Source: a virus. Taken from it: a stretch of DNA of 64,000 bases. The DNA is taken from IMG/VR virus record IMGVR_UViG_3300032087_005124, positions 1 through 64,000 of that record; one strand, written 5' to 3'. The notes below the pieces were generated by a model, which worked only from the letters and a program-made list of their open reading frames with translations, was not told where the DNA came from and ran no database searches. Positions 3,033-37,617 of the stretch are shown one piece after another (within the stretch, counting starts at the first letter, position 1; every line of letters begins with the position of its first letter). The position numbers and the translations under genes are program-made.

Positions 3033-3745
3033 AAACAATTTTAATTTCTACCATCGTTAGGAATAGAGCAAGCAAACTTAATAAATGGTATAACCAAATA
3101 AAAAATTTAGTATCCCTAGATAATAAAAACGCTTACTATCTTTCTGTCTATGAAAATGATTCTACTGACAATTCAAAAGAAATGCTAAATAATTTTGATT
3201 TTTCTTTTTTAGCAGGAGTAAAAATCCAAAATGAAAAAATTGAAACAGAATATTTTTATCAAGAAAATTTAGAGTCTAATAGAAAAAAAAGAGTTGAAAA
3301 TTTAGCTTTAGCTAGAAATAAAACATTATTTGGGATTACTTTTTTAAGTGAATGCTCTCATGTTTTATGTATAGAACCAGATATTGTCTATGACCCTCAG
3401 TCTATAATTAATAATATTATTAATTCAGATTTCGATATTGTTTCGCCTATCAGTAGGCAAGATGGATTTATTTTATATGATGGTTGGGCAACAAGAAAAG
3501 AGAAAGAAGATGTTTATTGGAATAATAAAATAAATCTAAATGGAGTTTTAGATGTGTGGTCCACGTTTAATTGTTTATGCTTTTATAAGTCTGACCCATT
3601 TAAATTTGGTGTTGGCTTTGGCTTTGAAAACCCAAGAACAAAAAAGTATGATTGCGACACTACGGTAATTTGTGAAAATTTTAGAAAATTCGGTTATGAT
3701 AAGATAAAATTAAATTGTAATGTCATTGTAGATCATTTGAGATGA
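3029..3745 (+). CDS. glycosyltransferase, GT-A type (CAP59/GT69-like)
   Basis: A 238-residue protein. It begins with a beta strand and an arginine (ISTIVRNRASKL). A YENDSTDNS motif at about residue 40 and an IEPDIVYDP segment in the middle resemble the fungal CAP59-type mannosyltransferases (GT69) and related bacterial and viral enzymes. The EPD triad may stand in for DxD. It lies in the operon just before the ColD-like enzyme. A mannose- or deoxysugar-transferring role is plausible but not shown. The fold assignment is moderate and the exact family is uncertain. Confidence 0.6.
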   Translation: MKTILISTIVRNRASKLNKWYNQIKNLVSLDNKNAYYLSVYENDSTDNSKEMLNNFDFSFLAGVKIQNEKIETEYFYQENLESNRKKRVENLALARNKTLFGITFLSECSHVLCIEPDIVYDPQSIINNIINSDFDIVSPISRQDGFILYDGWATRKEKEDVYWNNKINLNGVLDVWSTFNCLCFYKSDPFKFGVGFGFENPRTKKYDCDTTVICENFRKFGYDKIKLNCNVIVDHLR

Positions 3746-4911: not shown

Positions 4912-4912
4912 A

Positions 4913-5980
4913 ATGAAAAAAGTAATAGTTACAGGAGTTACAGGCCAAGATGGTAGTAATATGGTTGATTATCTCTTGAGAGAGACTGATCACATTATAA
5001 TTGGCGGAGTAAGAAGGCTTAGTGTTAAAAATCATCAGAATATTGAACACTTAGAAAATGAAGATAGATTTTTCTTAATTGACTTAGATGTAACTGATGC
5101 TCAAAATACTGACGAGGTTATAGCTGAACATAAGCCAGATTATTTTATTAATTTTGCCGCTAATTCTTTTGTTGGTACAAGTTGGAAAATGCCAACTCAA
5201 CACATGGAGACGAATGCTTTAGCTGTACTGCATCAACTTGAAGCTATAAAAAAACATTGTCTTGATTGCAGATATTACAATGCAGGATCTTCTGAAGAGT
5301 TTGGAGACGTAATCTGCACACCTCAAAGTGAACTACATCCATTAAGACCCCGTAGTCCATATGGAGCTTCCAAATGTTCAGCTAGACATTTAGTAAAAGT
5401 TTACAGAGACTCTTATGACCTATACGCTATTCAAGGCTGGCTTTTCAATCACGAAGGAACTAGAAGAGGTGAAGAATTTGTGACTAGAAAAATAACTAAA
5501 AATGTTGCTCGCATTTCTTTTGAGTACTCTAAAGAAAAAACCTTTAAACCTTTAGTTCTTGGGAATGTTGACTCAAAGAGAGATTGGAGCGATTCTGAAG
5601 ATTTCATGGACGGTATATGGAGAATGCTAAATCAAGATAATTTTGATTCTTATATAGACAATAATTACAAGCCAAAAGAGTATGTTCTTTCTTCTGATGA
5701 AACTCATACAATAAGAGAGTTTGTTGAAGAGGCTTTTCATATAGCTGGCTTTCATAGATCGATGTGTCGCTGGGAAGGCAAGGGAGTACATGAGAAATAT
5801 TATCATGGAGATGATCTACTTGTAGAAATTAGCGATAAATTTTATAGACCCGCTGAAGTTGATTTACTTTATGGTGATTCTTCTAGAGCGAGAAGAGATT
5901 TAGAATGGAACCCTAAAACAGATTTTACAGGTTTAGTGACTAAAATGGTTAAACATGATTTAGAGCTTGCAAAATCTTAA
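4913..5980 (+). CDS. gmd: GDP-mannose 4,6-dehydratase
   Basis: A 355-residue short-chain dehydrogenase of the Gmd type. It converts GDP-D-mannose to GDP-4-keto-6-deoxy-D-mannose in the cytosol. Visible marks are GVTGQDGS (residues 8-15, NADP-binding glycine motif), NAGSSEEFG, the catalytic YxxxK at Y150/K154, FNHEGTRRGEEFVTRKI and a KRDW segment, all characteristic of Gmd, and full family length. It is the last gene of the left sugar cassette, two bases after the ColD-like gene, so both probably act in one pathway. The product could also feed GDP-fucose or GDP-rhamnose synthesis, but the neighbouring ColD-like enzyme argues for a 3,6-dideoxysugar. Confidence 0.93.
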   Translation: MKKVIVTGVTGQDGSNMVDYLLRETDHIIIGGVRRLSVKNHQNIEHLENEDRFFLIDLDVTDAQNTDEVIAEHKPDYFINFAANSFVGTSWKMPTQHMETNALAVLHQLEAIKKHCLDCRYYNAGSSEEFGDVICTPQSELHPLRPRSPYGASKCSARHLVKVYRDSYDLYAIQGWLFNHEGTRRGEEFVTRKITKNVARISFEYSKEKTFKPLVLGNVDSKRDWSDSEDFMDGIWRMLNQDNFDSYIDNNYKPKEYVLSSDETHTIREFVEEAFHIAGFHRSMCRWEGKGVHEKYYHGDDLLVEISDKFYRPAEVDLLYGDSSRARRDLEWNPKTDFTGLVTKMVKHDLELAKS

Positions 5981-18653: not shown

Positions 18654-19146
18654 GTGTAAGACACAGAGAATGCCTTATACTCTTTCTTTTTTAGATCAAA
18701 AATTATATACCAGTTTATCTTTTGATGCTGATATAAAATTTCCTGAGTCCAGTGACTTTGTTAAGAAGTTTTGGATTTTGAAGGAATATAAAAAAGTAAG
18801 TTCAGATTTGGAGCTTTCAGAGTCTAAAGATTCTGATAAACAAATGACAAGCTCTTCTTCTTATGAGATACACAAAAGGTTTCAAGGCGATGAACTTATC
18901 GTTGAGATAGTTCAAAGCCTTGCTTTTTGTGAAGAATTTGATTATTTTAGCAAGGCGGATTTTGATTTGCCTACAGGAGATGAAGAATTAGATAAAATGC
19001 TCAATGATATAAAAGATTCTGATTTTGATGAATCAGTTATAAAAGCTTCTATCTTAGATAGTGTGCTTCAAGGCAATTATCCTCAAAATCCTGATGATGA
19101 ACCAAAAGAGGAAGAAGAAGATTCCTCTGAGGAATCAAGTGAATAG
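18631..19146 (+). CDS. protein with acidic C-terminal tail, unknown
   Basis: A 171-residue protein. The N-terminal half is a mixed fold (KFKCKTQRMPYTLSFLDQ) and the last 30 residues are a run of Asp, Glu and Ser (DDEPKEEEEDSSEESSE). Such tails often mimic nucleic acid or bind basic partners. It shares 23 bases with the previous gene and 8 bases with hldD. No family is recognised. Confidence 0.6.
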   Translation: MSQIWKFKCKTQRMPYTLSFLDQKLYTSLSFDADIKFPESSDFVKKFWILKEYKKVSSDLELSESKDSDKQMTSSSSYEIHKRFQGDELIVEIVQSLAFCEEFDYFSKADFDLPTGDEELDKMLNDIKDSDFDESVIKASILDSVLQGNYPQNPDDEPKEEEEDSSEESSE

Positions 19147-19975
19147 AGTTTTAATAACTGGAGCTGGCGGGTTTATAGGAGGGAACTTAGCCGCATATTT
19201 AGAAGCTCGCGGCTTTCAAGTCACAAGATTTGATATATCTTTAGGCAACACTGGTTATCCAGATATTTTTAATCAAGATTTTGTTATTCATCTTGGTGCA
19301 AATTCAAGCACTACAGAAACCAATCTAAAAAAAATATTAGATCAAAACTTTGAATACTCAGCCAACCTTTACAAGATGTGTGAGGCTTATGAGATAAAGT
19401 TTCAATATGCTAGTAGCGCATCTGTTTATGGTACATCTAAAACTTTTAAAGAAGATGAGTTTTGCAAGCCATTGAGTCCTTATGCCTTTAGTAAGTATAT
19501 GTTTGATTGTTGGCTAATGAATCAAGAATATCCATACCAAGGGTTTAGATATTTTAATGTTTACGGTTTGGGTGAAGATAAAAAAGGAAAGCAAGCTAGT
19601 CCTGTTTCAAAATTTATAAAAGAAGCGCAGACAGGCGGCAAAATAAAAATCTTTGAGAAAAGCGAAAAATATAAAAGAGATTTTGTTTCTGTAGACGATG
19701 TGTGTGAAATGCATTACAAACTTTTGACAAATGACGCTTCAGGAATATTTAATATAGGTACAGGTCAGCCTATCTCTTTCAGAGATGTAGCAGAGATAAT
19801 AAAAGAAAACTCTAACTCTGAGATAGAAGAAATACCAATGCCCAAAGAGCTAAAAGGGCAGTATCAAAAATTTACAAAAGCTGATATATCAAAGCTAAAT
19901 GAAATAATTGGTGATTATGAGTGGAAAAGTGTAAGTCAATATGTAGAAGAAAACATTGATGCTTTCCTTAATTAA
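19139..19975 (+). CDS. hldD: ADP-L-glycero-D-manno-heptose 6-epimerase
   Basis: A 278-residue NAD(P)-dependent epimerase that interconverts ADP-D- and ADP-L-glycero-manno-heptose, the LPS inner-core precursor. The match with E. coli HldD is visible throughout: GAGGFIGGN (8-16), SSTTETN, YASSASVYG, YxxxK at Y115/K119, GFRYFNVYGLGEDKKGKQAS, KRDFVSVDDV, SGIFNIGTGQPISF and PKELKGQYQKFTKAD. The GTG start at 19139 is preceded by GAGG at 19129-19132 with 6 bases spacing. An upstream ATG in frame (19061) would add an unrelated basic tail inside the previous gene. It is separated by about 3.5 kb from the other heptose genes. Confidence 0.93.
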   Translation: MNRVLITGAGGFIGGNLAAYLEARGFQVTRFDISLGNTGYPDIFNQDFVIHLGANSSTTETNLKKILDQNFEYSANLYKMCEAYEIKFQYASSASVYGTSKTFKEDEFCKPLSPYAFSKYMFDCWLMNQEYPYQGFRYFNVYGLGEDKKGKQASPVSKFIKEAQTGGKIKIFEKSEKYKRDFVSVDDVCEMHYKLLTNDASGIFNIGTGQPISFRDVAEIIKENSNSEIEEIPMPKELKGQYQKFTKADISKLNEIIGDYEWKSVSQYVEENIDAFLN

Positions 19976-20225
19976 AAGTGTTTTAAAATCAATTGAGCTA
20001 TATTTATCTTTAAAAAATAAGCTCTTCTACATAGAATTAAGACATAACCATGAAAAAACACGCAAAAGAATTATTCAAGAGCTTGAAGATATTAGGGCTA
20101 GTGGCGGTGATGCAGACCGTGCTGATCTCTTGCGAGACGAACTCATCCGTGAAGACGCAAGTTTTAAATATTTATCAGCCTTCTACGCTGAGTCTAGAGA
20201 AGGGAAGTCCGATAAGGACAACTAA
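19959..20225 (+). CDS. putative inner-membrane spanin-like protein
   Basis: An 88-residue protein starting at ATG 19959, inside the end of hldD. The N terminus is amphipathic to hydrophobic (LSLIKSVLKSIELYLSLKNKLFYIEL), followed by a charged helical part (KTRKRIIQELEDIRASGGDADRADLLRDEL) suited to a coiled coil. The lipoprotein gene 20050-20319 lies in another frame across its 3' half, the embedded arrangement of Rz/Rz1 spanin pairs. The N-terminal segment is a poor transmembrane helix, so the i-spanin call is tentative. Confidence 0.5.
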   Translation: MLSLIKSVLKSIELYLSLKNKLFYIELRHNHEKTRKRIIQELEDIRASGGDADRADLLRDELIREDASFKYLSAFYAESREGKSDKDN

Positions 20226-20319
20226 AGGTATTTACACTCCTCAAACCGATGAGGTTTGGCACTCTGATGCGAGGTTCCGCAAACTTGAGCGCCAGTTATA
20301 TTTTCCCAGCAATAAGTGA
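20050..20319 (+). CDS. outer-membrane lipoprotein, putative o-spanin
   Basis: An 89-residue protein with a lipoprotein signal peptide: a basic N terminus (MKKHAKELFKSLK), a hydrophobic core (ILGLVAVMQTVL) and lipobox LISC with the lipidated Cys at 28. After cleavage a mature part of about 60 residues would hang from the outer membrane. It overlaps the preceding frame by 176 bases and lies in the lysis region, which together fit an Rz1-type spanin that fuses the two membranes at lysis. Rz1 proteins are usually Pro-rich and this one is only mildly so. Confidence 0.6.
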   Translation: MKKHAKELFKSLKILGLVAVMQTVLISCETNSSVKTQVLNIYQPSTLSLEKGSPIRTTKGIYTPQTDEVWHSDARFRKLERQLYFPSNK

Positions 20320-20341: not shown

Positions 20342-20623
20342 ATGGCTTTTATTACTGGGATTCCTATTAGAAATAGTATACACACTGATTTATCTACAGA
20401 CAGTGGTGATTGGCAGAATTATAGAAATATTTTAACTGGTCAATTTTATAGCGGAGGAGGGGTAAATACAGGTAGATATCAAGAGTTTACTCAAGATATA
20501 CAAGAGTATAATAGGAAGATAGATACCCTTACAGGCAGATGGGGTCATACTGGACTTTTCCTTGATCCATATAATGCTGGATTCAGATATACAGGTACAG
20601 GAAATTTTAGAACTTGGCCTTGA
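20342..20623 (+). CDS. small tyrosine- and glycine-rich protein, unknown
   Basis: A 93-residue protein with many Gly, Thr and Tyr residues (GQFYSGGGVNTGRYQEFTQ, GLFLDPYNAGFRYTGTGNF). It has no signal peptide or membrane segment. The composition resembles small virion proteins. It follows a GTGTAA motif and is not overlapped by neighbours. Function unknown. Confidence 0.6.
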   Translation: MAFITGIPIRNSIHTDLSTDSGDWQNYRNILTGQFYSGGGVNTGRYQEFTQDIQEYNRKIDTLTGRWGHTGLFLDPYNAGFRYTGTGNFRTWP

Positions 20624-20647
20624 TTTTTTTTTATAGTATCATATAAT
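20620..20647 (+). promoter_or_regulatory. sigma70-like promoter
   Basis: TTGATT at 20620-20625 and TATAAT at 20642-20647 are separated by 16 bases. The -10 box is consensus and lies 8 bases before the ATG at 20656. The -35 box overlaps the stop codon of the previous gene. Confidence 0.55.
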
Positions 20648-20655
20648 ACAAATAT

Positions 20656-20862
20656 ATGAAAACTATTGAATTCACTGATCAGGAATTGCAGGTTCTCACT
20701 CAACTTTTAGATATCGCAGTAAAAGCTGGCGGTCTCAATGTTGCTGAAGCTGCAAGCGTACTCGCAAGGAAAATTTCTCAAGAAATTGAGCAAACTCCTC
20801 AATTTGCAGAACCTTCAATCGCTCCCGTAGAGGATGACGAAGAAGAAAGCGCAGAGGAATAA
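20656..20862 (+). CDS. small acidic-tailed helical protein, unknown
   Basis: A 68-residue protein with an N-terminal helical part (TDQELQVLTQLLDIAVKAGGLNVAEAASVLARKI) and an acidic tail (VEDDEEESAEE). The first half resembles a small helical domain found in several phage proteins, but I cannot name it. It has its own promoter and no overlap with neighbours. Confidence 0.6.
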   Translation: MKTIEFTDQELQVLTQLLDIAVKAGGLNVAEAASVLARKISQEIEQTPQFAEPSIAPVEDDEEESAEE

Positions 20863-20872
20863 AATATTTCCC

Positions 20873-20899
20873 TTGACGATTACAAAATTGTAATATAAA
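20873..20899 (+). promoter_or_regulatory. promoter with a palindromic operator for the OMP gene
   Basis: TTGACG (20873-20878) and TATAAA (20894-20899) flank the perfect-armed inverted repeat ATTACAA-AA-TTGTAAT (20879-20894), which fills the spacer. The spacer is 15 bases, shorter than the usual 17. A dimeric regulator bound to the palindrome would block or reshape this promoter. The regulated gene would be the outer-membrane protein at 20909. Confidence 0.55.
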
Positions 20900-20908
20900 G
20901 TTAAGATT

Positions 20909-21586
20909 ATGAAGAAATTTATTCTTACACTACTATTGGGCGCTATCTTTGGTGGCGCAGCGTATGGGACAACTATTGCAGATTCTTCTGTAGGAGTTGG
21001 CTTTTCAGCTTATAACTTCGAAACAAGTAGAGGTTTAGCAGCTAGAGAAGACGCTCTTGGTTATTCCCTTGATTTAACAGCACCTCTTAACGGCGGAGAC
21101 CTCTCATTTAATGTAGGTTTGTATGATGTTGATGGAGATTCTGAAGATTCAGATTATTCTATCACCTATACAAAAGGCATTGAACTATTAGGTCAAAAGC
21201 TAGGGGCTACAGCAAGTTTCTCTGGACTTGATTCCACTTTCGGGGACAGAGATGAAATTGCAGTTGGCTTATCTTACAAGTACTCTCTATTAGATACATC
21301 ATGGGCAGTTTGGCATGATTTAGATAATGAGTGGTATGGTGTTGAGATTGGAGCTTCAAGCACTTTTGAGACTCCTATTTCAAACCTATCAGTAACTCCA
21401 TTTGTTACTCTTAACCTTGTAGATGAGTATACAGCAGTTGAGGCTGGTCTTAAAGCAGGTTGGTCTATCACTGACCAGTTATCCGTACTCTCTAAGATTT
21501 CATACAATAACAATGATTTCGAAGGATCTTCTTTTGAAGTAGAAGATGAGTGGATTATTGGAGCAGGAATAGGCTTTAAATTCTAA
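20909..21586 (+). CDS. phage-encoded outer-membrane beta-barrel protein
   Basis: A 225-residue protein with a Sec signal peptide (MKKFILTLLLGAIFGGAAYG, cleavage near residue 20), then alternating hydrophobic and polar strands rich in Asp, Ser, Tyr and Gly (SYKYSLLDTSWAVWHDLDNEWYGVEIG), ending in GIGFKF with a C-terminal Phe, the BAM recognition signature of barrels. Length suggests 8-10 strands. The role is unknown; Lom-type or receptor-masking proteins and nutrient pores are possible. It is a single-gene unit with its own promoter, palindrome and terminator, unlike the surrounding packed genes. Confidence 0.75.
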   Translation: MKKFILTLLLGAIFGGAAYGTTIADSSVGVGFSAYNFETSRGLAAREDALGYSLDLTAPLNGGDLSFNVGLYDVDGDSEDSDYSITYTKGIELLGQKLGATASFSGLDSTFGDRDEIAVGLSYKYSLLDTSWAVWHDLDNEWYGVEIGASSTFETPISNLSVTPFVTLNLVDEYTAVEAGLKAGWSITDQLSVLSKISYNNNDFEGSSFEVEDEWIIGAGIGFKF

Positions 21587-21587
21587 T

Positions 21588-21603
21588 TTAAAATTAATTT
21601 TAA
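21588..21603. repeat. AT-only palindrome
   Basis: TTAAAATTAATTTTAA is a perfect 16-base palindrome just after the OMP stop codon. Similar AT-only elements with an AAATTAATTT-like core recur in other gaps, at 28121-28132, 58838-58860 and 63255-63274. Confidence 0.45.
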
Positions 21604-21625
21604 TTAGTTTTAATAACAAAATTAA

Positions 21626-21653
21626 AAAGCTCTCCGCAAGGAGGGCTTTTTTT
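21626..21653 (+). terminator. rho-independent terminator
   Basis: AAAGCTCTCC (21626-21635) pairs with GGAGGGCTTT (21640-21649), one pair being U-G, around a GCAA tetraloop of the stable GNRA class. A run of seven T (21647-21653) follows. It ends the OMP transcript and is directly followed by GTGTAA at 21654. Confidence 0.88.
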
Positions 21654-21659
21654 GTGTAA
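21654..21659 (+). promoter_or_regulatory. GTGTAA motif, 9 bases before the holin start
   Basis: GTGTAA at the end of the terminator T-run, 9 bases before ATG 21669, the same spacing as at 20327. There is no Shine-Dalgarno sequence between the motif and the start. Confidence 0.45.
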
Positions 21660-21668
21660 GTACTTTCA

Positions 21669-21986
21669 ATGGAACCAGAAAAATCCTTGTTAAAAGAATT
21701 CCTTCAGGGTGGATGGCTTGTCCCTTTGATTGGAGCCGCCGCCATGTTTGCTAGACTTTTGTCTGCAAATAACGAGTTAAGTTTAAAACAACAATTTAAA
21801 AGAATCCTTACGGCCGCTATCGCTTCAGGTATTGCTTGGTTTGTTTTAGAACAAACGGATGTATCTTCTCTTACTAAAGCTATAACTTATGGAATAATAG
21901 GTGTTGTTAGTCCTGAAGTTATAGGAGGTATAGTGAGATTAGGCCAGAAGTTTGAGACTAGCCCTTGGAAATTTTTTAAAAAATGA
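21669..21986 (+). CDS. putative holin
   Basis: A 105-residue membrane protein. Hydrophobic segments are GGWLVPLIGAAAMFARLL, ILTAAIASGIAWFVLE and AITYGIIGVVSPEVIGGIV, separated by short charged loops, and the C terminus is basic (WKFFKK). Size, three possible membrane segments and position just upstream of the endolysin fit a class I holin that makes the lethal membrane hole. It starts 15 bases after a terminator, so it must be read from its own promoter. Confidence 0.7.
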   Translation: MEPEKSLLKEFLQGGWLVPLIGAAAMFARLLSANNELSLKQQFKRILTAAIASGIAWFVLEQTDVSSLTKAITYGIIGVVSPEVIGGIVRLGQKFETSPWKFFKK

Positions 21987-22229: not shown

Positions 22230-22850
22230 ATGAATTTTAAAGGTAAAAAAGAAGTAGTTAAAGCTGTACAAAAACTATTAGGTGTTTCTGCTGATGGGGC
22301 AGATGGTCCCGTAACATGGAATGCTATTTTAGCAAAGCTATCCACAAAGAATGTTCCAGCACCAGATGGTGATATACCTCAAAAAATGGTTTCATTAGCT
22401 AGAGAAGAAATAGGAGTTTCTGAGGTTGATGGTAGTAACTGCGGGCCAAGAGTAGATGAATATAAAGCCGCGACTTGGCTTGATCCAGATAAAGGTTGGC
22501 CATGGTGCGCTGCTTTTATTTGTTGGCTAGTCAGAGAGGCAATTGAAGGTGAGGATGTAAAGTTTAAAAGACCAAGAACTGCTGGCGCTTGGGATTTTGA
22601 GAATTGGGCCAAACAGCAGGTTTCAAATGGCATAGATCTTCGTAAACCAACAAATGGAAATATTAAAGCTGGAGATATAGTTGTCTTTACCTTTTCCCAT
22701 ATAGGCATCGCTGTCAAAGATATAGACTCAAGTGGTTATGTAGTAACTATAGAGGGGAATACAAATGGCGCTGGAAGCAGAGAAGGTGGATCTGTCTTAG
22801 AGAAGAAGCGCCATGTTTCTAAAATAAGAAGTAGAATAAGAATTCTTTAA
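22230..22850 (+). CDS. endolysin, peptidoglycan-binding plus CHAP/TIGR02594-type domain
   Basis: A 206-residue lysis enzyme. Residues 1-40 form a PG_binding_1-like repeat (AVQKLLGVSADGADGPVTWNAIL). Residues about 50-206 form a papain-like amidase/peptidase domain. Catalytic C93 is in GWPWCAAFICWL and H157 in FTFSHIGIAV, followed by VTIEGNTN as the third position. This is the TIGR02594/CHAP pattern. The enzyme should cut the peptide part of peptidoglycan. It has no signal peptide, so it would need the holin to reach the wall. It is the last gene of the lysis cassette. Confidence 0.85.
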   Translation: MNFKGKKEVVKAVQKLLGVSADGADGPVTWNAILAKLSTKNVPAPDGDIPQKMVSLAREEIGVSEVDGSNCGPRVDEYKAATWLDPDKGWPWCAAFICWLVREAIEGEDVKFKRPRTAGAWDFENWAKQQVSNGIDLRKPTNGNIKAGDIVVFTFSHIGIAVKDIDSSGYVVTIEGNTNGAGSREGGSVLEKKRHVSKIRSRIRIL

Positions 22851-23467: not shown

Positions 23468-23842
23468 ATGAGTATGCAGCCTATTTTTAGCCGATTAGAA
23501 GTTCACCCCAAGGGTTGGGGAGAAGAGCTTTGGATTACCAACAATTATAAATATTGTGGTAAAATTTTACGTTTTAAACAGGGGTCTTCCTTCTCAATGC
23601 ATTATCACATTCAGAAGGAAGAAACTTGGTGTGTCACTAGAGGTAAACTAAAGTTAGAATATTTTAATTTAGAGACTTCTGAACGCCTTGAAAAAGAATT
23701 AGTAGAAGGCGACACTGTTCATTTAAAACCTTGCATCCCGCACAAGTTGACAGCATTAGAAGATTCAGATGTCTTTGAAGTCAGCACTCAACATTTCAAT
23801 GAGGACTCTTATAGAGTAGAAAAAGGCTCATCGCAGAAATGA
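23468..23842 (+). CDS. cupin (type II phosphomannose isomerase-like)
   Basis: A 124-residue single cupin domain. The metal-binding motif is H45-x-H47 ... E51 (MHYHIQKEETW) and a second His, H92, lies in IPHKL. The fold and HPKGWGEELW start resemble the C-terminal domain of mannose-6-phosphate isomerase/GDP-mannose pyrophosphorylase proteins (ManC/AlgA) and sugar-nucleotide epimerase-type cupins. It is the first gene of the heptose operon and could isomerise a sugar phosphate, but the substrate is unknown. Confidence 0.72.
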   Translation: MSMQPIFSRLEVHPKGWGEELWITNNYKYCGKILRFKQGSSFSMHYHIQKEETWCVTRGKLKLEYFNLETSERLEKELVEGDTVHLKPCIPHKLTALEDSDVFEVSTQHFNEDSYRVEKGSSQK

Positions 23843-24585
23843 AGTTTTTAGTTATAGGTGAAACTTGCAAAGACGAGTTTTGCTATGGCAAAGCTAATCG
23901 TTTGTGTCCAGAAGCTCCTGTTCCTGTATTTATACCAGATCATAATACAAGCAACTTAGGTATGGCGGCTAATGTTTATGAAAATATGCGGGCTATAGAT
24001 AACGAGACTCATAAAGATATACCTTTTAAAAATGACATAGCATTAAGTACTAATTACTGCGTTGGTTCTAAAACTAGATATATTGACATAGAATCAAATC
24101 AAATGTTTTTAAGGGTTGATACAGATAAGTATGAAGCTTGTGACAAGTTGCCAGAAAACATAGAGTCATTTGATGCCGTTATTGTTTCAGATTATAACAA
24201 AGGATATTTAACAGACTCGCAGTTAAGAGAGATTGCAAGAAGAAGCAAATTAAGTTTTTTAGATACTAAAAAACAATACAATCAAGAATGGGCTAATTTG
24301 TTTACTTTTATTAAGATAAATGATAAAGAGTACAAGGAGAATAGTTGGACACATCAAGGAGAGAATTTAATAATCACAAAAGGTTCAAAGGGTTGTTGGT
24401 ACAATAATAAAGATTATAAACTTAGCAAACCTTCAGAAGTTAGAGATGTTTCAGGCGCAGGAGATACATTTTTAGCTGCATTTGCTTATTCATATACAGC
24501 CACCAAAGATGTTGAATGCTCAATAATATATGCCCAAGATTGTTGTCAAAGAGTAATTAAAAAGAAAGGTGTTGCTACAATATGA
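23839..24585 (+). CDS. hldE1: D-beta-D-heptose 7-phosphate kinase (HldE N-terminal half)
   Basis: A 248-residue PfkB-family sugar kinase. Its start (FCYGKANRLCPEAPVPVF) matches the conserved YxGxVxRISPEAPVPVV of RfaE/HldE, followed by LGMAANVYENM. The PfkB signature is DVSGAGDTFLAAF (203 onward) with catalytic D209. It is shorter than the usual domain of about 320 residues. It would phosphorylate heptose 7-phosphate at C1 with ATP. In E. coli kinase and transferase are one protein; here they are two overlapping genes. The symbol is by analogy. Confidence 0.85.
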   Translation: MKFLVIGETCKDEFCYGKANRLCPEAPVPVFIPDHNTSNLGMAANVYENMRAIDNETHKDIPFKNDIALSTNYCVGSKTRYIDIESNQMFLRVDTDKYEACDKLPENIESFDAVIVSDYNKGYLTDSQLREIARRSKLSFLDTKKQYNQEWANLFTFIKINDKEYKENSWTHQGENLIITKGSKGCWYNNKDYKLSKPSEVRDVSGAGDTFLAAFAYSYTATKDVECSIIYAQDCCQRVIKKKGVATI

Positions 24586-25088
24586 AACATAAGAAAATAA
24601 TGACTTTTGAGGAAATAAAAAATGAAAGACTTTTCGCTAAACAGTTAGAAGAAGTAGGCATAAAAAAATTTTTTATTTTTACTAACGGTTGCTTTGATTT
24701 ATTTCATGCTGGACACGCTAGTTTGCTTAACGGGATGAAGAATGCTTGTAGTTTAAATTCTAAGTTAGTGGTTGGTATAAATGGAGATGCGAGTGTTAAA
24801 TCAGTAAAAGGTAAAGACAGGCCAATAATACCCGCTAAACAAAGAGCTTATACTGTAGCTTGTCATGAAGCTGTTGATTATGTATTTATTTTCAATACTA
24901 AAACTGTAGCTAAACAACTAAAAGAACTTCAGCCAGATTTTTGGTGCAAAGGTGGCGATTATAATGAAGATTCTTTAAATAAATCAGAGTTAAAAGCAAA
25001 AGGTAATGCTATACTAAAAGTGATACCTTTTGTAGAAAATGTAAGTACAAGTAATATAATAAGTAAAATTCATGATAAAAAGTTATAA
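24582..25088 (+). CDS. hldE2: D-beta-D-heptose 1-phosphate adenylyltransferase (HldE C-terminal half)
   Basis: A 168-residue cytidylyltransferase-fold enzyme. The nucleotide-binding motif is TNGCFDLFHAGH, with H42-A-G-H45. Also conserved are VGINGDASVKSVKGKDRPIIPAKQR (in part) and the PDFWCKGGDYNE loop of RfaE domain II. It should make ADP-D-glycero-beta-D-manno-heptose. It overlaps the kinase by 4 bases. No GmhA (sedoheptulose 7-phosphate isomerase) was recognised, so the host would supply heptose 7-phosphate. ATP as the nucleotide donor is inferred from the family. Confidence 0.85.
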   Translation: MKHKKIMTFEEIKNERLFAKQLEEVGIKKFFIFTNGCFDLFHAGHASLLNGMKNACSLNSKLVVGINGDASVKSVKGKDRPIIPAKQRAYTVACHEAVDYVFIFNTKTVAKQLKELQPDFWCKGGDYNEDSLNKSELKAKGNAILKVIPFVENVSTSNIISKIHDKKL

Positions 25089-28770: not shown

Positions 28771-31700
28771 ATGGGAGACTTTCAAAGAAGATTAGATAAC
28801 GGTGCAGCATCTAATGACTTAGTGCCATTTTCTCCATCTGTATCGCCTTTATATGATACAAATGGAGCTTTAAGTGGTTACAGTTATGCATTTAACCAAG
28901 GTTATGTTTTTAATAACATGGCCTCTGGGAAAACATCTCGTGAAGAATCCATCATAGCAGGGATGGATCAAGTTTACAATGTCGGAGAAAATGAAGAGGT
29001 CTCATTTAAGGTTGATGTTGTTTTAAACAAAGAAAACTTTTTAGTTGACTCTAAAGTTTTTGGAACTGGAACTGGACAATCATCTTTTCCTGCTACAACC
29101 TTTCAATATTTATTTGATGATAGTATTGAAGATACAGGTTTTATTACAGGCTATTATCCTGTATGCAAGGTTAAAGGTGGCCATATTTTAGAATTAGAAC
29201 TTAGAGATAATATACAGTTTGATAAAAGGGGATTACAGCAAATAGGCGCTACAGGGGCATCTTCAGAAGGTGAAGGAGGTATTGGGCATATTATTATAGA
29301 ATCTGGCAGAGATGATGAAACTCTTCCTACAAGATTTAGAGCTATATCAGGGGGTTCAGGAATACAAGTTAGATATGATGACACTGGAAATCCTTCAGGA
29401 AGCCCATATATAGTTATTGACACAACCAATCAGGGTCTTGGCAATTATGTAGCAAATACTAGTATAACTGGAGGTTCTACAGGAGCAAGAATTTATATCA
29501 CTGGAACTAATAGACCTCAACTATTAAGAGAACTTACAGGGGCGGCAGCAGATAGTAGTACTCAATTTTCAGAAATTTATGTTTTTGAGGAAGATAGCAA
29601 AATTGTTTTAAGCGGTCAAGTAACAGGTTTATGGACTGGAGAAAATGTTACTCAAACTGATGGGGCCACACCAGAATATATTTACTTAGATAATACGGGT
29701 CCAACTGAAAACCCTCCTAGCAAGGCGCAATTTAGAGGTATAAGAGGGAAAGCTGTTACAGAGTCTAGTGTTTCAGAAGGCAAGCAAACAGCAACCGTAA
29801 ATGTTGATGAAGTTGATGAAGTTATAGAAATATCTGTAGATTTAAGTGATTGTGTTGGTATTGGTGGTTCGGCGGCAACAAATAAGGTTATAACAGGTTC
29901 TCTTCCTACAGGTTCGATAATAGTAGGAGGCGCTCATAACTCTATTAGTGGTCACTTCAATGTAATCAGTGCGGGATCTCACAATAAAATCTCTGGAAAT
30001 GAGTTAAACTTTATTGGTGGTGGTTCAGGTAATGATGTTACTTTTAGTAGATTTTCATCTTCTCTTGGGGGTGAGAACAATGATATAAGTGGATCAAATA
30101 GATCTGTCGTATTAGGAGGTAGAAATAATCTTATACATAGTGGTGGATTTAGTTTTTTAGGTGGGGGTGACGGTAATAAAATTACTGGAAGTCAAAGTTC
30201 CTATTCTTCAATTATTGGAGGTGGAGGTAACTTAATCACTGGTTTAAATTCAGTTTTAGCTGGAGGTAATGTAAACTCTATATTTAGCGATTACTCTTTT
30301 ATAGGTGGAGGAGAATCAAATATAGCCAGTGGAGAATTTTCTATTATAGCTGGAGGAGAAGAAAATAAAACATTTAGCACTCACTCTGTAGTGCTTGGTG
30401 GCCAAGATAACACGGCTTCTGGTATTTATTCATTTGTAGGTGCTGGTAAAGAAAACAAAGTTTTAGCTGATTATGGTTTTGCTGCTGGTAGAAACTCTAC
30501 AGTACAAGAAAACCATGATGGTGCTTTTGTTTTATCAGATAGTAACACAACAGAAACTTTATCTTCTGGCGCAAATACTTTAACACTAAATTTTAAAAGC
30601 GGTGTTTTTGTTGACTCTGATAGTGGTATTTATATAAATGGTAATCCTGTACTAACAGGAGTTAGTGGATCTGAGGGAGATACTTTACAGATTGTTACTG
30701 ATAGAGGTGCGACTACAACTAATGATATAACAGCTCCTAATCTTTTTGTATTCAATAACGCAGCATTAAAAGCTAACGGCGTTGGATACCTTGAGCTAGG
30801 AAACACTGGCGGTGGAGTTATACAAGTTGGTGGAGATGGTGTAAACAGCACAATAGCACCAAGGTTCAATAACCTGAAGATACAAACATCAAGAGATTCT
30901 GATGACATAATATTTTTAGCAGGTGCTTCAACAACAGAGCTTCTTCGTCTAGATGCTTCGGCTAGTTCCATCAACGTGCCTGATAATGTTCAGTTAAATA
31001 TTGGTGCTGGCATTGACTTAATTCACAATAGTACAAATGGTTTTATAAAAAACACTGTCGGTGATCTTTACATTGAGAACACGACAAACGGAAAAGACAC
31101 AATATTTAAAAATGATAATGACTCAGGCACAGCAACCGAGCTACTTAGACTCGACGGGTCGGCTAGTTCAATCAAAGTCCCAGATGATGTCTTTTTACAA
31201 TTTGGTTCTTCAAATGATTTACAAATTTACCACACAACAACCACCAACCAAAGTTGGATATATAACAGTCAAGGGCATTTAAAATTAACTAATGCCGCTA
31301 TCAATTCTGATATAGTTTTTTCCTGTAAAGACGCAACAACTGTTAACGAGTTAATGAGACTCGATGGATCGACTAGTAATGTCGGTATAGGAACAAGTGT
31401 ACCTTCAGGAAAATTAGATGTCAATGGAGCAATTCATGCAAGAGGAGGCACAGTTGCTGGCAATACAGGAGAATCTGACACTACTAATGCAGCTATAGTT
31501 CTTCAAGATAATAACTATATTTATGGACAGACTTCTAATAATTACTTAAGAAGGATTATTGGAAAAGACTCCGCTGGAGTAATTACTGTAGGACAAGGCG
31601 AAACTTCTATTGTAAAAGAAATTTCATTTGAAGCGGGTAATCATAGTGATGGAAAATACACCTTCCATTCAGGAACTACAGAATTAGCAAGAATACAAGC

Positions 31701-34700
31701 GGATGGTAACATGGGTATTGGCACAGATTCTCCAAGTGCTAGACTCCATGTCAACGGTCCCGCTGCGGGATTTGCAGAAGCTTTAAGGTTACAAAGAGCG
31801 GGTGGTAATTATTATTCTGTTGGTTTAGATAATAGCAGGGTTAATTTTGTTTACAATAGTCAAACTACTGCAAACTCAACTCTCACCATAGATGGTGGTA
31901 ATACTAGAGTCGGTATAGGCACACATGCACCATCAAGGCATCTTCATGTTGAAGGAGGAGGAACAAATGTTCTTGCAAACTTTGAAAGCACAGATGCTGG
32001 GGCTTATTTGTCTTTCTCTGATGATTCTACAACCAACGATACTTCCGTTCGTTTGGGGGCAGTAGGAAATAATTTTCAGTTTTTTACTAATGGGTCAGAA
32101 CAAGTTAGGATAACTTCTTCTGGTAATGTCGGTATAGGAACAGACAATCCAGTTTATACATTAGAAGTCGATGTTGACAATGATGATTGGGTAAGGTTTA
32201 AAAGCAATGATAATAAGATGGGTCTTATCTTAGCGGATAATGACACTGTTCAATATTTAATGGCTGAAAATAGCGCATTAAGCTTAGGTCATCGAGCAGC
32301 CCTTCACAATGAAAATTTAAATATTATAGATGGCGGAGATGTTGGCATAGGAACGACAACTCCTTCAGGTAAACTTCATGTTTTTAATACTGGAAATGCC
32401 TCTGGTGATATATTTATTGTAGATGGATCTCACGGAAGGCTCTTCAATGTTTCTGATGAGACTACTGGAATTATATTTAGCGTAAATGATGCTGCTGGAC
32501 TTCCTGTTTTAGAAGTCGATAGCACTTCTGGTTATGATAAGATTTCTATAGGAGAATTTGGAACAAATGCATTAGTTGTTTCTGGTAGTACATCTACTTT
32601 TGGAGGTGACGTACTAGGAACTGGGGCAGGTAACCGCATTACGAACAACGGAACTCCTTACCTTCTTTCTGGCGATGCGGCAGCGACACTCACGCTCCAA
32701 GATGTTACTGATAATGGGGCAACTACGACTAACGCTTTAAAAACACAACTTATTTCTATAACAGGAGGAGGCACTGACTCACCTGTTGGAGTCAATGGAC
32801 TTCACTTAACATACGATGGCACAGCAACAGCTTATATTAATGCACAACACAATGGCACTAGTAATAGGCACTTAATATTTAAAGCTGCTTCATACAATTT
32901 TAATATTGGTGATTTAGCGGTAAATACCGACAATTTATATGTAGATGTATCTGAAAATAGAGTAGGTATAAATGAAGATAGTGTTGATGCGACCTTACAC
33001 ATGACCAATGTCGGTGGAGGTGTGGTTAACCAAAAATTTGAGCGGGCAGGAGTATCTGCTTGGCGATTAGGCATACCTAATGGGCAAACTTACTTTGCAT
33101 TCGATGATACTAATGATGATTTATCAACTGCGAAGGTAGTCATCACAAAAACTGATGGCCATGTTGGTATAGGAACAAATGCTCCTTCAGGCGCATTAGA
33201 TGTTAACGGCGTTGCTTACTTTAGAGGTGGCACAACTCAAGGCCATACTCAAGATGAAACTGATGCAGCTATAGTTCTGTACGATGATGATTATATCTAC
33301 TCTAGAAATGCGGGAGATTATTTAAGAAGAGTTATAGGAAAAGATTCTGGTGGAGCGATACATATTGGAGAACCTAGTACTTCAATAATTAATGAAGTAA
33401 AATTCTATGCGGGTAGTGGATCTTCAACTAAATACACATTCCACTCAGGAACTACAGAGTTAGCTAGAATCGACGGAAGTGGTAACTTATTAATTAACAC
33501 AACATCAAACAATTTCGGCAATAAACTTAATGTTGCAGGAGGCTCAACTAGAGTAAAAGAATTGCAAGTAGCTGCGGGTGTTGGCTACTCCAATTACGGC
33601 AAATTAACTCATAATGACAATCAATTTATTATAGAAGCACAAAGAGGGTCTCTTGATGGAGATATCGTTATAAAACCTTACAGAAACTTGCTTATTAGTG
33701 GTGATAATGTAGGTATAGGAACTACTAATCCTGCTGATACTCTTCAAGTAGCAGGACAAGTAAGAATTGATGGTTCTACAACAGATGGACTGACAATAAC
33801 ATCTAGTGCAGGGGCAAGTCAAGGATTATTACTTTATAATAACTCAAACACAGATACAGCTAGTATTATAAACTTCTATGATGGGCCATTAATCTTGGGA
33901 CAGGCTAACGCAGAAGTCATGAGACTTCATGATAATGGTAATGTTGGTATAGGGACAGATAATCCTCAAAGAAAGTTAGATGTCAGAGGAACTGCTGGTG
34001 TTCAATATGCACCTACAGCTCACGACACTCAAGGTGCAATCTTTCTTCTTGCTGACGGTAGTAACAACTCATACATAGAACTTAGAGACGGAAGTAGTAA
34101 TGTAGATGTTAAACTTAACACTGCTGGGGATAGTTATTTTAACGGCGGTAATGTTGGTATAGGAACCACAAGCCCATCAGCACCTTTACACATTCAATCA
34201 AGTACTGATCATAATAAAATAAGACTCACAAATGATAACTCTCAAACTTGGGGGTTAATGATTGGCAATTCTGGGTATTATCAAGGGTACTTTATGATTG
34301 ACCAAGTTGGGTCAGGTCAAAGGTTTGTAATAAATGATCAAGGAAGTGTAGGAATAGGAACTAATGCCCCATCAGAAAAACTCCATGTGGATGAAGGCTT
34401 TATACTTGCTGATGGAGCATCCACAAATCACGGATTTGAATTAAGAAGAGATTCTTCTGACACTTTCCAAATAAGACATTTAGGCGGTAATTTTACTATA
34501 AATAACCTTACTGATAATCGTAAAGATTTATCTATTGATGGAAATGGTAATGTTGGTATAGGAACAGATATTCCATCTGAAAAACTTACGGTTGATGGTA
34601 ACATAAGAATAAATGGTGACAGTAGAGAATTTTATTTTGCTGGAAACCAAGCGCAGATAAGAGCTAGTAGTGCTTCAACTGATATTACTTTCGTTAACTC

Positions 34701-37617
34701 TAGCACTGAATTAGTAAGATTTGCATCTGATGGTAAAGTGGGCATCAACGACACAGCACCTCAAGGAAAGTTACAAATAGATGCAGGAGGTGATGTAAAT
34801 TGCATACATTTAGTTAACAGTAGTCAAAGTTTTTCTAATTTTGCTACAAGACCAATATCAATAATTTTTGGTGATGAGCAAAAAGGTGCAAGCGCAAGGC
34901 ATCAAGCAAGCATAAATTGTGTTCGTGAAGCATGGTCAAATACACCTGCTGCGTTGACATTTAAAACAGCTGCTGGAGTTAATACAGCGACTGAAAGGAT
35001 GCGTATTACTTCTGCTGGTAATGTCGGTATAGGAACAGATAATCCACAAGAGCTTCTACATATAGATGGGTCTAGCCCTAGAATAAGATTAAGAGATAGT
35101 GACGCAGCAGGAACGCCTTACGCTCATATCGACGCTAGTGATGGGGCATTACTTATTGAAGCTGATAAAGGAGATGAAACCGCTTCAAGTTACATAGCGC
35201 TTACTGTTGATGGCAGTGAATCTATACGTGCAATTGCTGGCGGTAACGTTGGTATAGGAACATCAAGTCCAACAACGACACTTGATGTATATAAATCAAG
35301 TAGCACCAGTGCGACTTCTACAGGAACAACTCTTTTTAAATTACATAATTATGTTGGCGTTGATCTTAATCAGCAGAAATCATTTATTGATTTTGCTCTT
35401 ACTGATGATAATACTAATGAAACCCCTCAAGTTAGAATTGGCGCAGAGGTTGGACAGAATGGAAATGCTGACAGTCAGATAAAAGAAGGTTGCGGGGCAT
35501 TCGTAGTTTACACCAATAATGCTGAACATACTACTGGTGATGCTGGTGCATCTTTAGAGGAAAGAATGCGGGTTGATTACCAAGGTAAAGTTGGTATAGG
35601 AACAACAAATCCTGCTTTTGAATTAGATGTAGATGGCACAATCCACGGCACAAGTGGAAACTTTGAAAATGGCATTACCATAGATGGCAATCCAGTGCTT
35701 ACTGGAACATCTCCTTTTGAGACAGATACATTGCAAACTGTTACTGATAGAGGGGCTACTACAACAAACGCTATATCGATTCACAACAGCGCTGCTGGAG
35801 GTAACCCAAGATTATCTGTTGGTAGAGAGACTAGTCAGTCGATTGAAATTGATGTTGATGATAACAATAATACTATCGTTGCTAGGCAGGACACTGATAG
35901 TGATCAAGATCATAAATTTGTTCTTAATAGAGTCTTTGGTGGCACAGGAGAGAATGATTTCCAAATCTCAAAAGCAGGAACTGCCCAACTAACAATAGAT
36001 ACTGATGGAAAGGTTGGAATAGGAACAACTAATCCAAGTCAAAGACTTCATGTTAATTCAAGCGCAATAAATGAAGTAGCTATATTTGAAAGCACTGATG
36101 GCACTGCTTATATATCTATTCAAGATTCTGGAACGTCTACTGGATTACATGGATATGGAGCTATAGGAGATAATTTAACGCTTTATGCCAGTGGTGCGGA
36201 AAGAGTTCGTATTGCGTCTGACGGTAAAGTTGGGATAGGGTCAAAGAATCCATCTTTTGTATTAGATACTGTATTTACAGGAGATAATGGCGCTCGTTTA
36301 AGAAGCACTGACAATCATTCATCTTTAACTGTTCACTCACATCCTTCTTATGGGGCTTACTTAAGATTCATGGATGGTAGTAATAGATATTGGCTACAAG
36401 CAAGATCTGACGATAAGTTACACTTTAGACCAAATGCTACTCTTTTAGAGTCTGCTAGTATTTACTTTGATGAGACTGGTAAAGTTGGTATTGGGGTTAG
36501 TAACCCAACAGAGAAATTAGAAATAAATCCAGATACAGATGTTTCTGCTATTATTGGTAAGGCACATGTTGGATACATGGGGCAAGCTGATAGCGCATTT
36601 TTCGGCCATATTAATTACGCCAATACTAGTAATTATGCTTTAAAACAAAATAATCTTGGAAATACATTTTTAAATTGTAAAACAGCAGGAACTATTGCGT
36701 TTAATATCAATAATGCGACAATAGCAGCTTTTGATAACGGTGGAGATTTTCAAGTCGATACAGATACTTTATTTGTAGATGCTTCTGAAGATAGAGTTGG
36801 TATAGGAACTCAAACTCCTTCAGGTACTCTCCATGTATCATCTAATTTTACAAATGTATTTATACAAGATGCAAATTCATCATATCCAACAGCTGCCGCT
36901 TTAATTAATTTTAATGATAATGGGACTCAAGGTATAATGGGTTCTATTGGATACGAGACAGACGGCAATTTAACTATATCTCAAAGAAACCCAAGTAGAT
37001 ATATAGCTTTAACTGGAAGTAATGTTGGAATAGGAACTACAAGCCCTTCAACACCTTTACATGTAAAAGGTAATATAAGAGCAGAAGCTTCTGCAAGCAC
37101 TGCATTTGCTGATTTTAAGAGTTCTCAGATATATGCTTCGAGTACGTATGATGTTATTGTAGGATCAAGTAATTCTTTACATTTCAGAACAGACGATACC
37201 AGAAGGATGACCATCCTTGGAGATGGTAAAGTAGGTATAGGAACAACCATTCCAAGCAATGCCCTCGATGTTGTTGGCCACTTCTCAGCGACAAGTAAAT
37301 CTTTCCTTATTGATCACCCAACAAAAGAAAACAAAAAACTCCAGTACGCATCTTTGGAGGGTCCAGAGAATGGAGTTTATGTAAGAGGCACAACAAATAG
37401 TGCGATCATAGAACTGCCAGATTATTGGTCTGCATTAGTACATGAGGACTCTATAACAGTTGTCCTCACACCAATAGGAAAGAAACAAGATTTATACATA
37501 AAATCTAAAAGCCCCGAAACTGTCATGATTGGCGGTGTTGAAGGATCTTATGATTATGTAGTTTATGGAGAACGTAAAGATATAGATAGATTGGAGATAG
37601 AACCAGATGGGAACTAA
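28771..37617 (+). CDS. giant tail fibre/adhesin, 2948 residues
   Basis: The largest protein of the window. The N-terminal 370 residues are a unique, probably virion-attaching region. Residues about 380-590 contain a dozen YadA/haemagglutinin-like head repeats (IIGGG..N..SG..S pattern). Then follow about 23 spaced copies of a VGIGTxxPxxxL beta motif, each ending a module of about 90 residues, as in many marine phage fibres. The last ~110 residues (SATSKSFLIDHPT, YVVYGERKDIDRLE) form a domain also present at the end of the 48833 gene. It probably trimerises and contacts the host surface. Confidence 0.85.
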   Translation: MGDFQRRLDNGAASNDLVPFSPSVSPLYDTNGALSGYSYAFNQGYVFNNMASGKTSREESIIAGMDQVYNVGENEEVSFKVDVVLNKENFLVDSKVFGTGTGQSSFPATTFQYLFDDSIEDTGFITGYYPVCKVKGGHILELELRDNIQFDKRGLQQIGATGASSEGEGGIGHIIIESGRDDETLPTRFRAISGGSGIQVRYDDTGNPSGSPYIVIDTTNQGLGNYVANTSITGGSTGARIYITGTNRPQLLRELTGAAADSSTQFSEIYVFEEDSKIVLSGQVTGLWTGENVTQTDGATPEYIYLDNTGPTENPPSKAQFRGIRGKAVTESSVSEGKQTATVNVDEVDEVIEISVDLSDCVGIGGSAATNKVITGSLPTGSIIVGGAHNSISGHFNVISAGSHNKISGNELNFIGGGSGNDVTFSRFSSSLGGENNDISGSNRSVVLGGRNNLIHSGGFSFLGGGDGNKITGSQSSYSSIIGGGGNLITGLNSVLAGGNVNSIFSDYSFIGGGESNIASGEFSIIAGGEENKTFSTHSVVLGGQDNTASGIYSFVGAGKENKVLADYGFAAGRNSTVQENHDGAFVLSDSNTTETLSSGANTLTLNFKSGVFVDSDSGIYINGNPVLTGVSGSEGDTLQIVTDRGATTTNDITAPNLFVFNNAALKANGVGYLELGNTGGGVIQVGGDGVNSTIAPRFNNLKIQTSRDSDDIIFLAGASTTELLRLDASASSINVPDNVQLNIGAGIDLIHNSTNGFIKNTVGDLYIENTTNGKDTIFKNDNDSGTATELLRLDGSASSIKVPDDVFLQFGSSNDLQIYHTTTTNQSWIYNSQGHLKLTNAAINSDIVFSCKDATTVNELMRLDGSTSNVGIGTSVPSGKLDVNGAIHARGGTVAGNTGESDTTNAAIVLQDNNYIYGQTSNNYLRRIIGKDSAGVITVGQGETSIVKEISFEAGNHSDGKYTFHSGTTELARIQADGNMGIGTDSPSARLHVNGPAAGFAEALRLQRAGGNYYSVGLDNSRVNFVYNSQTTANSTLTIDGGNTRVGIGTHAPSRHLHVEGGGTNVLANFESTDAGAYLSFSDDSTTNDTSVRLGAVGNNFQFFTNGSEQVRITSSGNVGIGTDNPVYTLEVDVDNDDWVRFKSNDNKMGLILADNDTVQYLMAENSALSLGHRAALHNENLNIIDGGDVGIGTTTPSGKLHVFNTGNASGDIFIVDGSHGRLFNVSDETTGIIFSVNDAAGLPVLEVDSTSGYDKISIGEFGTNALVVSGSTSTFGGDVLGTGAGNRITNNGTPYLLSGDAAATLTLQDVTDNGATTTNALKTQLISITGGGTDSPVGVNGLHLTYDGTATAYINAQHNGTSNRHLIFKAASYNFNIGDLAVNTDNLYVDVSENRVGINEDSVDATLHMTNVGGGVVNQKFERAGVSAWRLGIPNGQTYFAFDDTNDDLSTAKVVITKTDGHVGIGTNAPSGALDVNGVAYFRGGTTQGHTQDETDAAIVLYDDDYIYSRNAGDYLRRVIGKDSGGAIHIGEPSTSIINEVKFYAGSGSSTKYTFHSGTTELARIDGSGNLLINTTSNNFGNKLNVAGGSTRVKELQVAAGVGYSNYGKLTHNDNQFIIEAQRGSLDGDIVIKPYRNLLISGDNVGIGTTNPADTLQVAGQVRIDGSTTDGLTITSSAGASQGLLLYNNSNTDTASIINFYDGPLILGQANAEVMRLHDNGNVGIGTDNPQRKLDVRGTAGVQYAPTAHDTQGAIFLLADGSNNSYIELRDGSSNVDVKLNTAGDSYFNGGNVGIGTTSPSAPLHIQSSTDHNKIRLTNDNSQTWGLMIGNSGYYQGYFMIDQVGSGQRFVINDQGSVGIGTNAPSEKLHVDEGFILADGASTNHGFELRRDSSDTFQIRHLGGNFTINNLTDNRKDLSIDGNGNVGIGTDIPSEKLTVDGNIRINGDSREFYFAGNQAQIRASSASTDITFVNSSTELVRFASDGKVGINDTAPQGKLQIDAGGDVNCIHLVNSSQSFSNFATRPISIIFGDEQKGASARHQASINCVREAWSNTPAALTFKTAAGVNTATERMRITSAGNVGIGTDNPQELLHIDGSSPRIRLRDSDAAGTPYAHIDASDGALLIEADKGDETASSYIALTVDGSESIRAIAGGNVGIGTSSPTTTLDVYKSSSTSATSTGTTLFKLHNYVGVDLNQQKSFIDFALTDDNTNETPQVRIGAEVGQNGNADSQIKEGCGAFVVYTNNAEHTTGDAGASLEERMRVDYQGKVGIGTTNPAFELDVDGTIHGTSGNFENGITIDGNPVLTGTSPFETDTLQTVTDRGATTTNAISIHNSAAGGNPRLSVGRETSQSIEIDVDDNNNTIVARQDTDSDQDHKFVLNRVFGGTGENDFQISKAGTAQLTIDTDGKVGIGTTNPSQRLHVNSSAINEVAIFESTDGTAYISIQDSGTSTGLHGYGAIGDNLTLYASGAERVRIASDGKVGIGSKNPSFVLDTVFTGDNGARLRSTDNHSSLTVHSHPSYGAYLRFMDGSNRYWLQARSDDKLHFRPNATLLESASIYFDETGKVGIGVSNPTEKLEINPDTDVSAIIGKAHVGYMGQADSAFFGHINYANTSNYALKQNNLGNTFLNCKTAGTIAFNINNATIAAFDNGGDFQVDTDTLFVDASEDRVGIGTQTPSGTLHVSSNFTNVFIQDANSSYPTAAALINFNDNGTQGIMGSIGYETDGNLTISQRNPSRYIALTGSNVGIGTTSPSTPLHVKGNIRAEASASTAFADFKSSQIYASSTYDVIVGSSNSLHFRTDDTRRMTILGDGKVGIGTTIPSNALDVVGHFSATSKSFLIDHPTKENKKLQYASLEGPENGVYVRGTTNSAIIELPDYWSALVHEDSITVVLTPIGKKQDLYIKSKSPETVMIGGVEGSYDYVVYGERKDIDRLEIEPDGN
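29913..30525 (+). repeat. YadA-like head repeats within the fibre gene
   Basis: About thirteen consecutive units of 14-16 residues, each of the form [ISV]-x-GG-x-x-N-x-x-x-x-G-x-x-S, for example FIGGGESNIASGEFS then IIAGGEENKTFSTHS. This is the left-handed beta-roll pattern of trimeric autotransporter heads. The units are clearly related but diverged in DNA. Confidence 0.8.
33757..33805 (+). repeat. 49-base block identical to 45191-45239
   Basis: A 49-base stretch, starting CAAGTAAGAATTG and ending TAACATCTA, is identical in the 2948- and 2195-residue fibre genes. Flanking sequence is similar but diverged. It marks a recent duplication or gene conversion between the two genes. Confidence 0.8.

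Follow-up and report, generated by a model that had tools for sequence, protein, structure and literature searches.

We analysed a window of 64,000 nucleotides, positions 1 to 64,000 of the 66.8-kb IMG/VR virus record IMGVR_UViG_3300032087_005124, which carries a predicted outer-membrane protein gene inside a lysis cluster. The cluster runs in the order spanins, barrel unit, holin and endolysin, and its features are the following (positions are those of the window):

19956-20225, + strand: i-spanin-like ORF (assigned by sequence inspection; no Pfam match)
20050-20319, + strand: o-spanin-like lipoprotein, overlapping the i-spanin-like ORF (assigned by sequence inspection; no Pfam match)
20620-20647, + strand: promoter-like site, 5' of the ORF at 20656-20862
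20873-20901, + strand: sigma70-like promoter (-35 TTGACG at 20873-20878, 17-nt spacer, -10 TAAAGT at 20896-20901)
20879-20894, no strand: palindrome ATTACAAAATTGTAAT, filling the promoter spacer; probable operator
20909-21586, + strand: predicted outer-membrane 12-stranded beta-barrel of 225 aa, with a signal peptide and a C-terminal F beta-signal; allele class 1 of 7
21624-21653, + strand: intrinsic terminator (12-nt arms with one G-U pair, GCAA loop, T7 tract)
21654-21659, + strand: GTGTAA, candidate late-promoter motif, directly after the barrel terminator and 9 nt 5' of the holin gene
21669-21986, + strand: holin-like protein of 105 aa (phrog_6384, E 7e-4; 90% mean identity over 36 loci)
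22230-22850, + strand: endolysin with a CHAP domain, in lysis-cluster context

The nearest of the relatives compared is a 109-kb IMG/VR contig (G001), whose core proteins are 99-100% identical to those of the window. The phage looks virulent, as no integrase turned up in the six related records searched (possibly fragments); the window is without tRNA. A host assignment through the window's aminotransferase gave a single match, at 25% identity to a Bacteroidetes MAG, and was not interpretable. At 28771-37617 the window encodes a 2948-aa fibre with GIGT-type repeats, and at this position G001 carries a different protein of 1806 aa, despite the near-identical core. Sugar-nucleotide and heptose-type genes (aminotransferase, epimerases, kinase and cytidylyltransferase) are found at 3742-5980, 19061-19975 and 23468-25088 of the window; between two of the related records (G002 and G003) some of these genes are replaced wholesale.

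Promoter, palindrome and terminator of the barrel unit

The original prediction had placed a promoter with a perfect-armed palindrome in its spacer, a 225-residue barrel candidate and a GNRA-loop terminator in this interval, and the coordinates that it gave are right. In the window, 7 nt separate the end of the -10 from the ATG and a leaderless mRNA is predicted. Taken alone, the promoter is a 9/12 match; with 66 such sites in 16 kb and 58.8 expected, it does not go beyond chance in a single window sequence. The palindrome (ATTACAA-AA-TTGTAAT) has 7-nt arms that are 100% complementary, and the exact form ATTACAN4TGTAAT occurs in the window as a single copy, at 20879-20894. When 2.9 million viral contigs (IMG/VR) were scanned for CCCTTGACNATTACANNNNTGTAATATA, 18 matched, all of them directly 5' of the barrel gene, and this conservation excludes a chance origin of promoter and palindrome and bears out the predicted combination of the two. 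Among 18 long records, the exact palindrome is found once in 12 and is missing from six, and always lies at the barrel promoter.

A second search, profile-based and independent of the promoter, yielded 70 barrel loci. The TTGA-type -35 is kept in all promoter lineages (A-D), including where the palindrome is lost, and a plausible -10, read by eye in the 70-locus set, ends 6-9 nt 5' of the ATG across lineages. Lineage A has the palindrome, as do two loci of lineage C; the remaining C loci keep the right arm TGTAAT next to a degenerate left arm (ATTAAA, ATGAAA), and lineages B and D are without it. Being degenerate in part of C and absent in B and D, the palindrome is not essential. In 12 distinct lineage-A promoters both 6-nt arms are constant and the 4-nt centre varies, an invariance of the arms that is partly by construction, since the search pattern used to choose these promoters specified the arms.

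We read the palindrome as a probable operator. Alternatively, TGTAAT, the right arm, could belong to a promoter element (compare GTGTAA, below) and the left arm could be inherited sequence, as the C loci with one intact arm would suggest, together with a mild enrichment of TGTAAT 5' of genes (16 against 3.4 by density). Such an origin fits less well with group A, in which both arms (fixed by the search pattern) are kept between barrels only ~43% identical while the centre changes, and the spacer sequence of sigma70 promoters is normally not conserved; we regard it as rather unlikely. A different inverted repeat, ATCTTGAAAAAGAT, is found in the upstream regions of promoter group B (L031-L053); it overlaps the barrel -35 there and is possibly another operator.

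The GNRA-loop terminator is upheld by both its folding and its variation. The arms of the GCAA-looped stem lie at 21624-21635 and 21640-21651, and the segment 21620-21660 folds at -17.2 kcal/mol (z = -5.5), which no shuffle equals. The terminator is present in all 66 examined units except L084, where the search pattern had no match. Across 17 distinct terminator forms, five stem pairs show compensating changes on both sides, and the covariation score of 0.335 is above all 500 shuffles (mean 0.183), a control that relatedness may inflate; slid registers reach at most 0.153.

Between spanins and holin, the barrel is present at 68 of the 72 holin loci with enough upstream sequence. In L123 and L124 the o-spanin gene is followed by GTGTAA and then the holin gene with nothing between, so that the unit is absent as a block with the late motif kept, and the barrel is nowhere in the 84-kb record of L123 (G007); this absence represents one lineage and is not polarised as gain or loss. 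Another relative (L086/G005) has the barrel in the opposite orientation to spanins and holin; here no GTGTAA follows the barrel terminator, and the gene must use its own promoter. A secreted 243-aa ORF adjoins the inverted barrel of this outgroup phage (L086, 3224-3955) and has no convincing family. Altogether, the barrel with its signals is very likely an autonomous transcription unit, and with its absence as a block in some relatives and its inversion in another, the layout can be called moron-like, as had been proposed. The accompanying claim that the barrel is the only gene in its surroundings standing as an isolated unit was too strong: the ORF at 20656-20862 has its own promoter-like site and is followed by no terminator before the barrel gene, so that transcription may read through into the barrel. 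Another such promoter-like site lies 5' of 23468.

Candidate early and late promoter classes

Promoter classes were counted in 131 non-redundant upstream regions from five long records. Sigma70-like sites 5-9 nt 5' of the ATG number 38, against 8.8 ± 3.0 in shuffles, and Shine-Dalgarno-like motifs are scarce (11/131 regions). A transcription start ~6-7 nt past the -10 would make such mRNAs leaderless. GTGTAA is the most strand-biased hexamer 5' of genes (33 upstream versus 8 antisense) and occurs in 26 of the 131 regions, compared with 2.3 in shuffles (maximum 8). The genes that it precedes include a virion structural gene, a tail gene, holin, NrdB and PhoH; as the last two are among them, it may be a middle/late or a general motif. 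GTGTA(A/G) looks like the late promoter. Leaderless-type sigma70-like sites and GTGTAA are found across the whole phage group (G001-G006, e.g., L092-L097) as candidate early and late promoter classes.

The lysis cluster brings the two classes side by side. After the barrel terminator, 53 of the 66 units have GTGTAA and a further ten have GTGTAG. In another two the search landed on an earlier GCTTTTT, which leaves L086, with its inverted barrel and a convergent next gene, as the sole real exception. In G001, sites of the TTGAC/CTTGC type lie mostly 5' of small ORFs without known function (13-33 kb), and in its lysis region the barrel is the only gene with such a site. It is thus a well-founded reading of these sequences that a host-type promoter, probably an early one, serves the barrel and that transcription of the lysis genes would restart from a second class; that the host-type promoter is early or constitutive we consider likely. 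Transcription of the barrel only within the lysis operon appears unlikely on the same grounds. In promoter groups B and C, GTGTAA is also found 5' of the barrel (29/35 units), and there the barrel may be expressed late too.

The original prediction had envisaged possible expression independent of the lytic programme, and the promoter class of the barrel does differ from that of the lysis genes; given six records with no integrase, such independence may mean early rather than lysogenic expression. More generally, the leaderless host-type promoters and GTGTAA offer a first outline of early and late transcription in this uncultured phage group that can be put to the test.

Exchange of barrel alleles between fixed flanks

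What is new here is the exchange of seven classes of barrel alleles (defined at 65% identity) between a fixed promoter and a fixed terminator, as read from sequence comparison. Where all neighbours are present (36 loci), the holin averages 90% pairwise identity, the endolysin 89%, the o-spanin 66% and the barrel 55%. In pair plots (L061/L069, L056/L070, window/L007), flanks of 90-100% identity surround a gene of ~40-70%, with the change at the ends of the gene. The signal peptide was considered as a breakpoint and rejected: in most pairs the alleles exchange together with their signal peptides. Classes 1, 3, 4 and 5 are each found under two or more promoter lineages, and a tree built from spanin, holin and endolysin, some branches of which are weakly supported, requires 10 changes among the six classes represented where the minimum is 5.

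A tempting reading of the pair G002 and G003 was that the barrel type follows the tail type, and two other pairs rule it out. The barrels of G004 and G013 are 42% identical, and elsewhere the two phages agree closely: helicase, DnaE and holin are 100% identical, spanin and endolysin 95-96%, and four tail proteins 96-99%. Conversely, G002 and G013 share a barrel at 96% identity while three tail proteins are at 22-41% and a fourth at 71%. Together these pairs indicate that the alleles move by flank-anchored recombination, independent of tail type. We hold allelic cassette exchange of the barrel to be almost certain. A small ORF in the same region (20342-20623, ~95 aa) tracks tail type: it is 47% identical between the window and G001, where its neighbours are at 99-100%, and 96% identical between G004 and G013, which have their tails in common.

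Within allele classes, dN/dS is 0.055-0.16, which rules out faster, diversifying evolution inside an allele and shows a protein that is functional and conserved within its class. The swapping of at least seven barrel versions between otherwise near-identical phages suggests a remodelling of the infected-cell surface before lysis, under unusual selection. The question raised is why a surface protein of the infected cell should be allelic in an apparently virulent marine phage.

Predicted fold, possible functions and known systems compared

The window protein is modelled by AlphaFold2 as a barrel of 12 strands with a pLDDT of 83.8, and an allele 36% identical reaches 86.8, in line with the barrel first proposed. 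The protein ends in F after alternating hydrophobic residues, which we take to be the usual beta-signal, and there can be little doubt about the predicted outer-membrane barrel. Among solved folds, the window model is best matched by KdgM (Z 17.7, 2.5 A over 167 residues), followed by Tsx (Z 16.8, 192 residues at 3.4 A) and by NalP, FapF and NanC (Z 15-16; NanC 15.7); the second allele model gives the same set of best folds. The proposed comparison with Lom/OmpX-type proteins was misplaced, as these are 8-stranded barrels and the best folds here are the 12-stranded KdgM, Tsx and NanC.

The window protein has no Pfam match at E up to 1. Other alleles touch the OMP_b-brl, MipA and cyanophage OMP models, almost all below cut-off: allele L068 scores 26.9 bits against a cut-off of 24.2 for MipA/OmpV (PF06629), over residues 178-230 only, with the other alleles below, and two alleles score 18.9 and 15.2 bits for the cyanophage OMP (PF24653; cut-off 27). 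KdgM is not among the Pfam families matched by 11 barrel members. No barrel match was obtained among 50,697 phage records or, by sequence, among solved structures, and a pattern scan of 84,980 species genomes returned no bacterial homologue, a weak absence for a method that finds mainly close relatives.

Surface exclusion or remodelling is our tentative choice for the function of the barrel. The early envelope proteins Llp of T5 (PMC9586334) and Cor of T1 (PMC13164509) block receptors and prevent both a second infection and adhesion to debris; an early role of this kind would fit the timing and allelism of the barrel. That allele type is uncoupled from tail type speaks against a simple masking of the phage's own receptor and suggests that any exclusion would be aimed at other phages or act via the host. 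Hypervariable outer loops were looked for and rejected: mean entropy is 0.95-1.51 in the loops (sidedness being taken from the usual periplasmic ends of barrels), 1.37 in the mature protein and 1.31-1.99 in the periplasmic turns. With outer loops no more variable on average than the rest, the protein differs from surface proteins that are selected to escape receptor-binding proteins.

The main rival is a solute channel: a small porin importing nutrients (e.g., nucleosides or acidic sugars) as an auxiliary metabolic gene, with a nutrient-responsive operator. The nearest folds, KdgM, Tsx and NanC, are 12-stranded uptake channels; by strand alternation, the invariant W135, E146, N169, E178, K196 and N202 should face the lumen; and a regulated host-type promoter with one operator would suit such a gene. 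Autotransporter and FapF barrels, however, score nearly as high, so that the fold is uninformative on function; the window protein meets no transporter sequence family, and a plain uptake channel would not be expected to swap old alleles. We consider a channel possible and on the unlikely side.

The conserved residues also bear on an enzymatic role. Nearly invariant are R46, D48, D75, S109, G112, W135, G144, E146, S150, N169, E178, K196, N202, D203 and W215, and the mature protein is acidic (33 D/E versus 9 K/R). A surface-modifying outer-membrane enzyme (acting on lipid A, on phospholipids or as a protease), its acidic active site lying at the outer rim, could draw on the polar members of this set (R46, D48, D75, S109, D203, E146, E178, K196 and N202) and on a 12-strand fold common to LpxR (Z 13.4 and 13.2) and OMPLA (Z 12.8). 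However, the match is no better than to many non-enzymes, and there is no invariant His (H136 is Tyr in one class), making OMPLA- or LpxR-type catalysis unlikely; an enzyme is an improbable reading overall. Still more improbable is a lysis factor aiding spanins and endolysin in outer-membrane disruption. Its position between spanins and holin at nearly all holin loci would suit that role, but the barrel has its own promoter class, terminator and downstream restart motif, is inverted in one relative (L086/G005) and absent in another that retains spanins, holin and endolysin, and both i- and o-spanin-like genes are already there.

Our overall explanation, to which we give an even chance, is that this stretch forms a self-contained unit of transcription that can be exchanged between phages and whose outer-membrane protein alters the surface of the infected cell. 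Host RNA polymerase would transcribe the barrel early or constitutively into a near-leaderless mRNA, and a putative regulator would read the palindrome and adjust transcription; the terminator would separate the barrel from late lysis transcription, with the lysis genes restarting at GTGTAA. Less certainly, the barrel might then be exported and folded in the outer membrane, altering a surface that might exclude further phages or keep progeny from sticking to debris, and allele swapping might reflect selection for rarity. A bolder version, which we think rather doubtful, is that the barrels define surface types of infected cells, with alleles older than the lineages that carry them, kept by rarity selection and recombined in the promoter and terminator independently of tails. 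If it were true, each surface type would exclude or admit other phages by type, and the surface protein of a virulent phage would show a trans-lineage polymorphism of an immunity- or MHC-like kind.

Outer-membrane barrels are often predicted in phages, but seldom with a known use; the present one belongs to a regulatory unit that is autonomous and conserved. Near-identical phages differing mainly in the barrel, plus a relative without it, form a natural experiment in which its role is directly testable.

Among known systems, the barrel is unlike the Ail/Lom/OmpX proteins in its predicted strand number, and no Pfam family claims the window protein. It has the predicted 12-stranded fold in common with KdgM/NanC and Tsx, a common arrangement that is no proof of membership, with a sequence identity of 6-12%. 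Like PF24653 and many BFVD entries, it is an outer-membrane barrel encoded by uncultured marine or caudoviral phages; the PF24653 model differs in covering 122 positions and in matching below cut-off, and the closest BFVD models reach a TM-score of about 0.44-0.62. T5 Llp and T1/N15 Cor (PMC9586334, PMC13164509) are likewise phage envelope proteins expected early in infection; they are small periplasm-facing lipoproteins, whereas the barrel is a predicted integral one, and no homology tested positive. Compared with morons in the sense of Hendrix (lambda lom, bor), the unit differs in belonging to a phage that looks virulent (six records, possibly fragments, with no integrase) and in being nearly fixed in its group (68/72 loci), with alleles swapped in place. 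Its GC content (39.1%; holin 37.4, endolysin 39.5, window 34.4) is not unlike the rest of the phage, a deviating GC being frequent in morons but not required. As in morons, a single surface-protein gene with its own promoter and terminator sits amid late genes, and the block is absent in some relatives.
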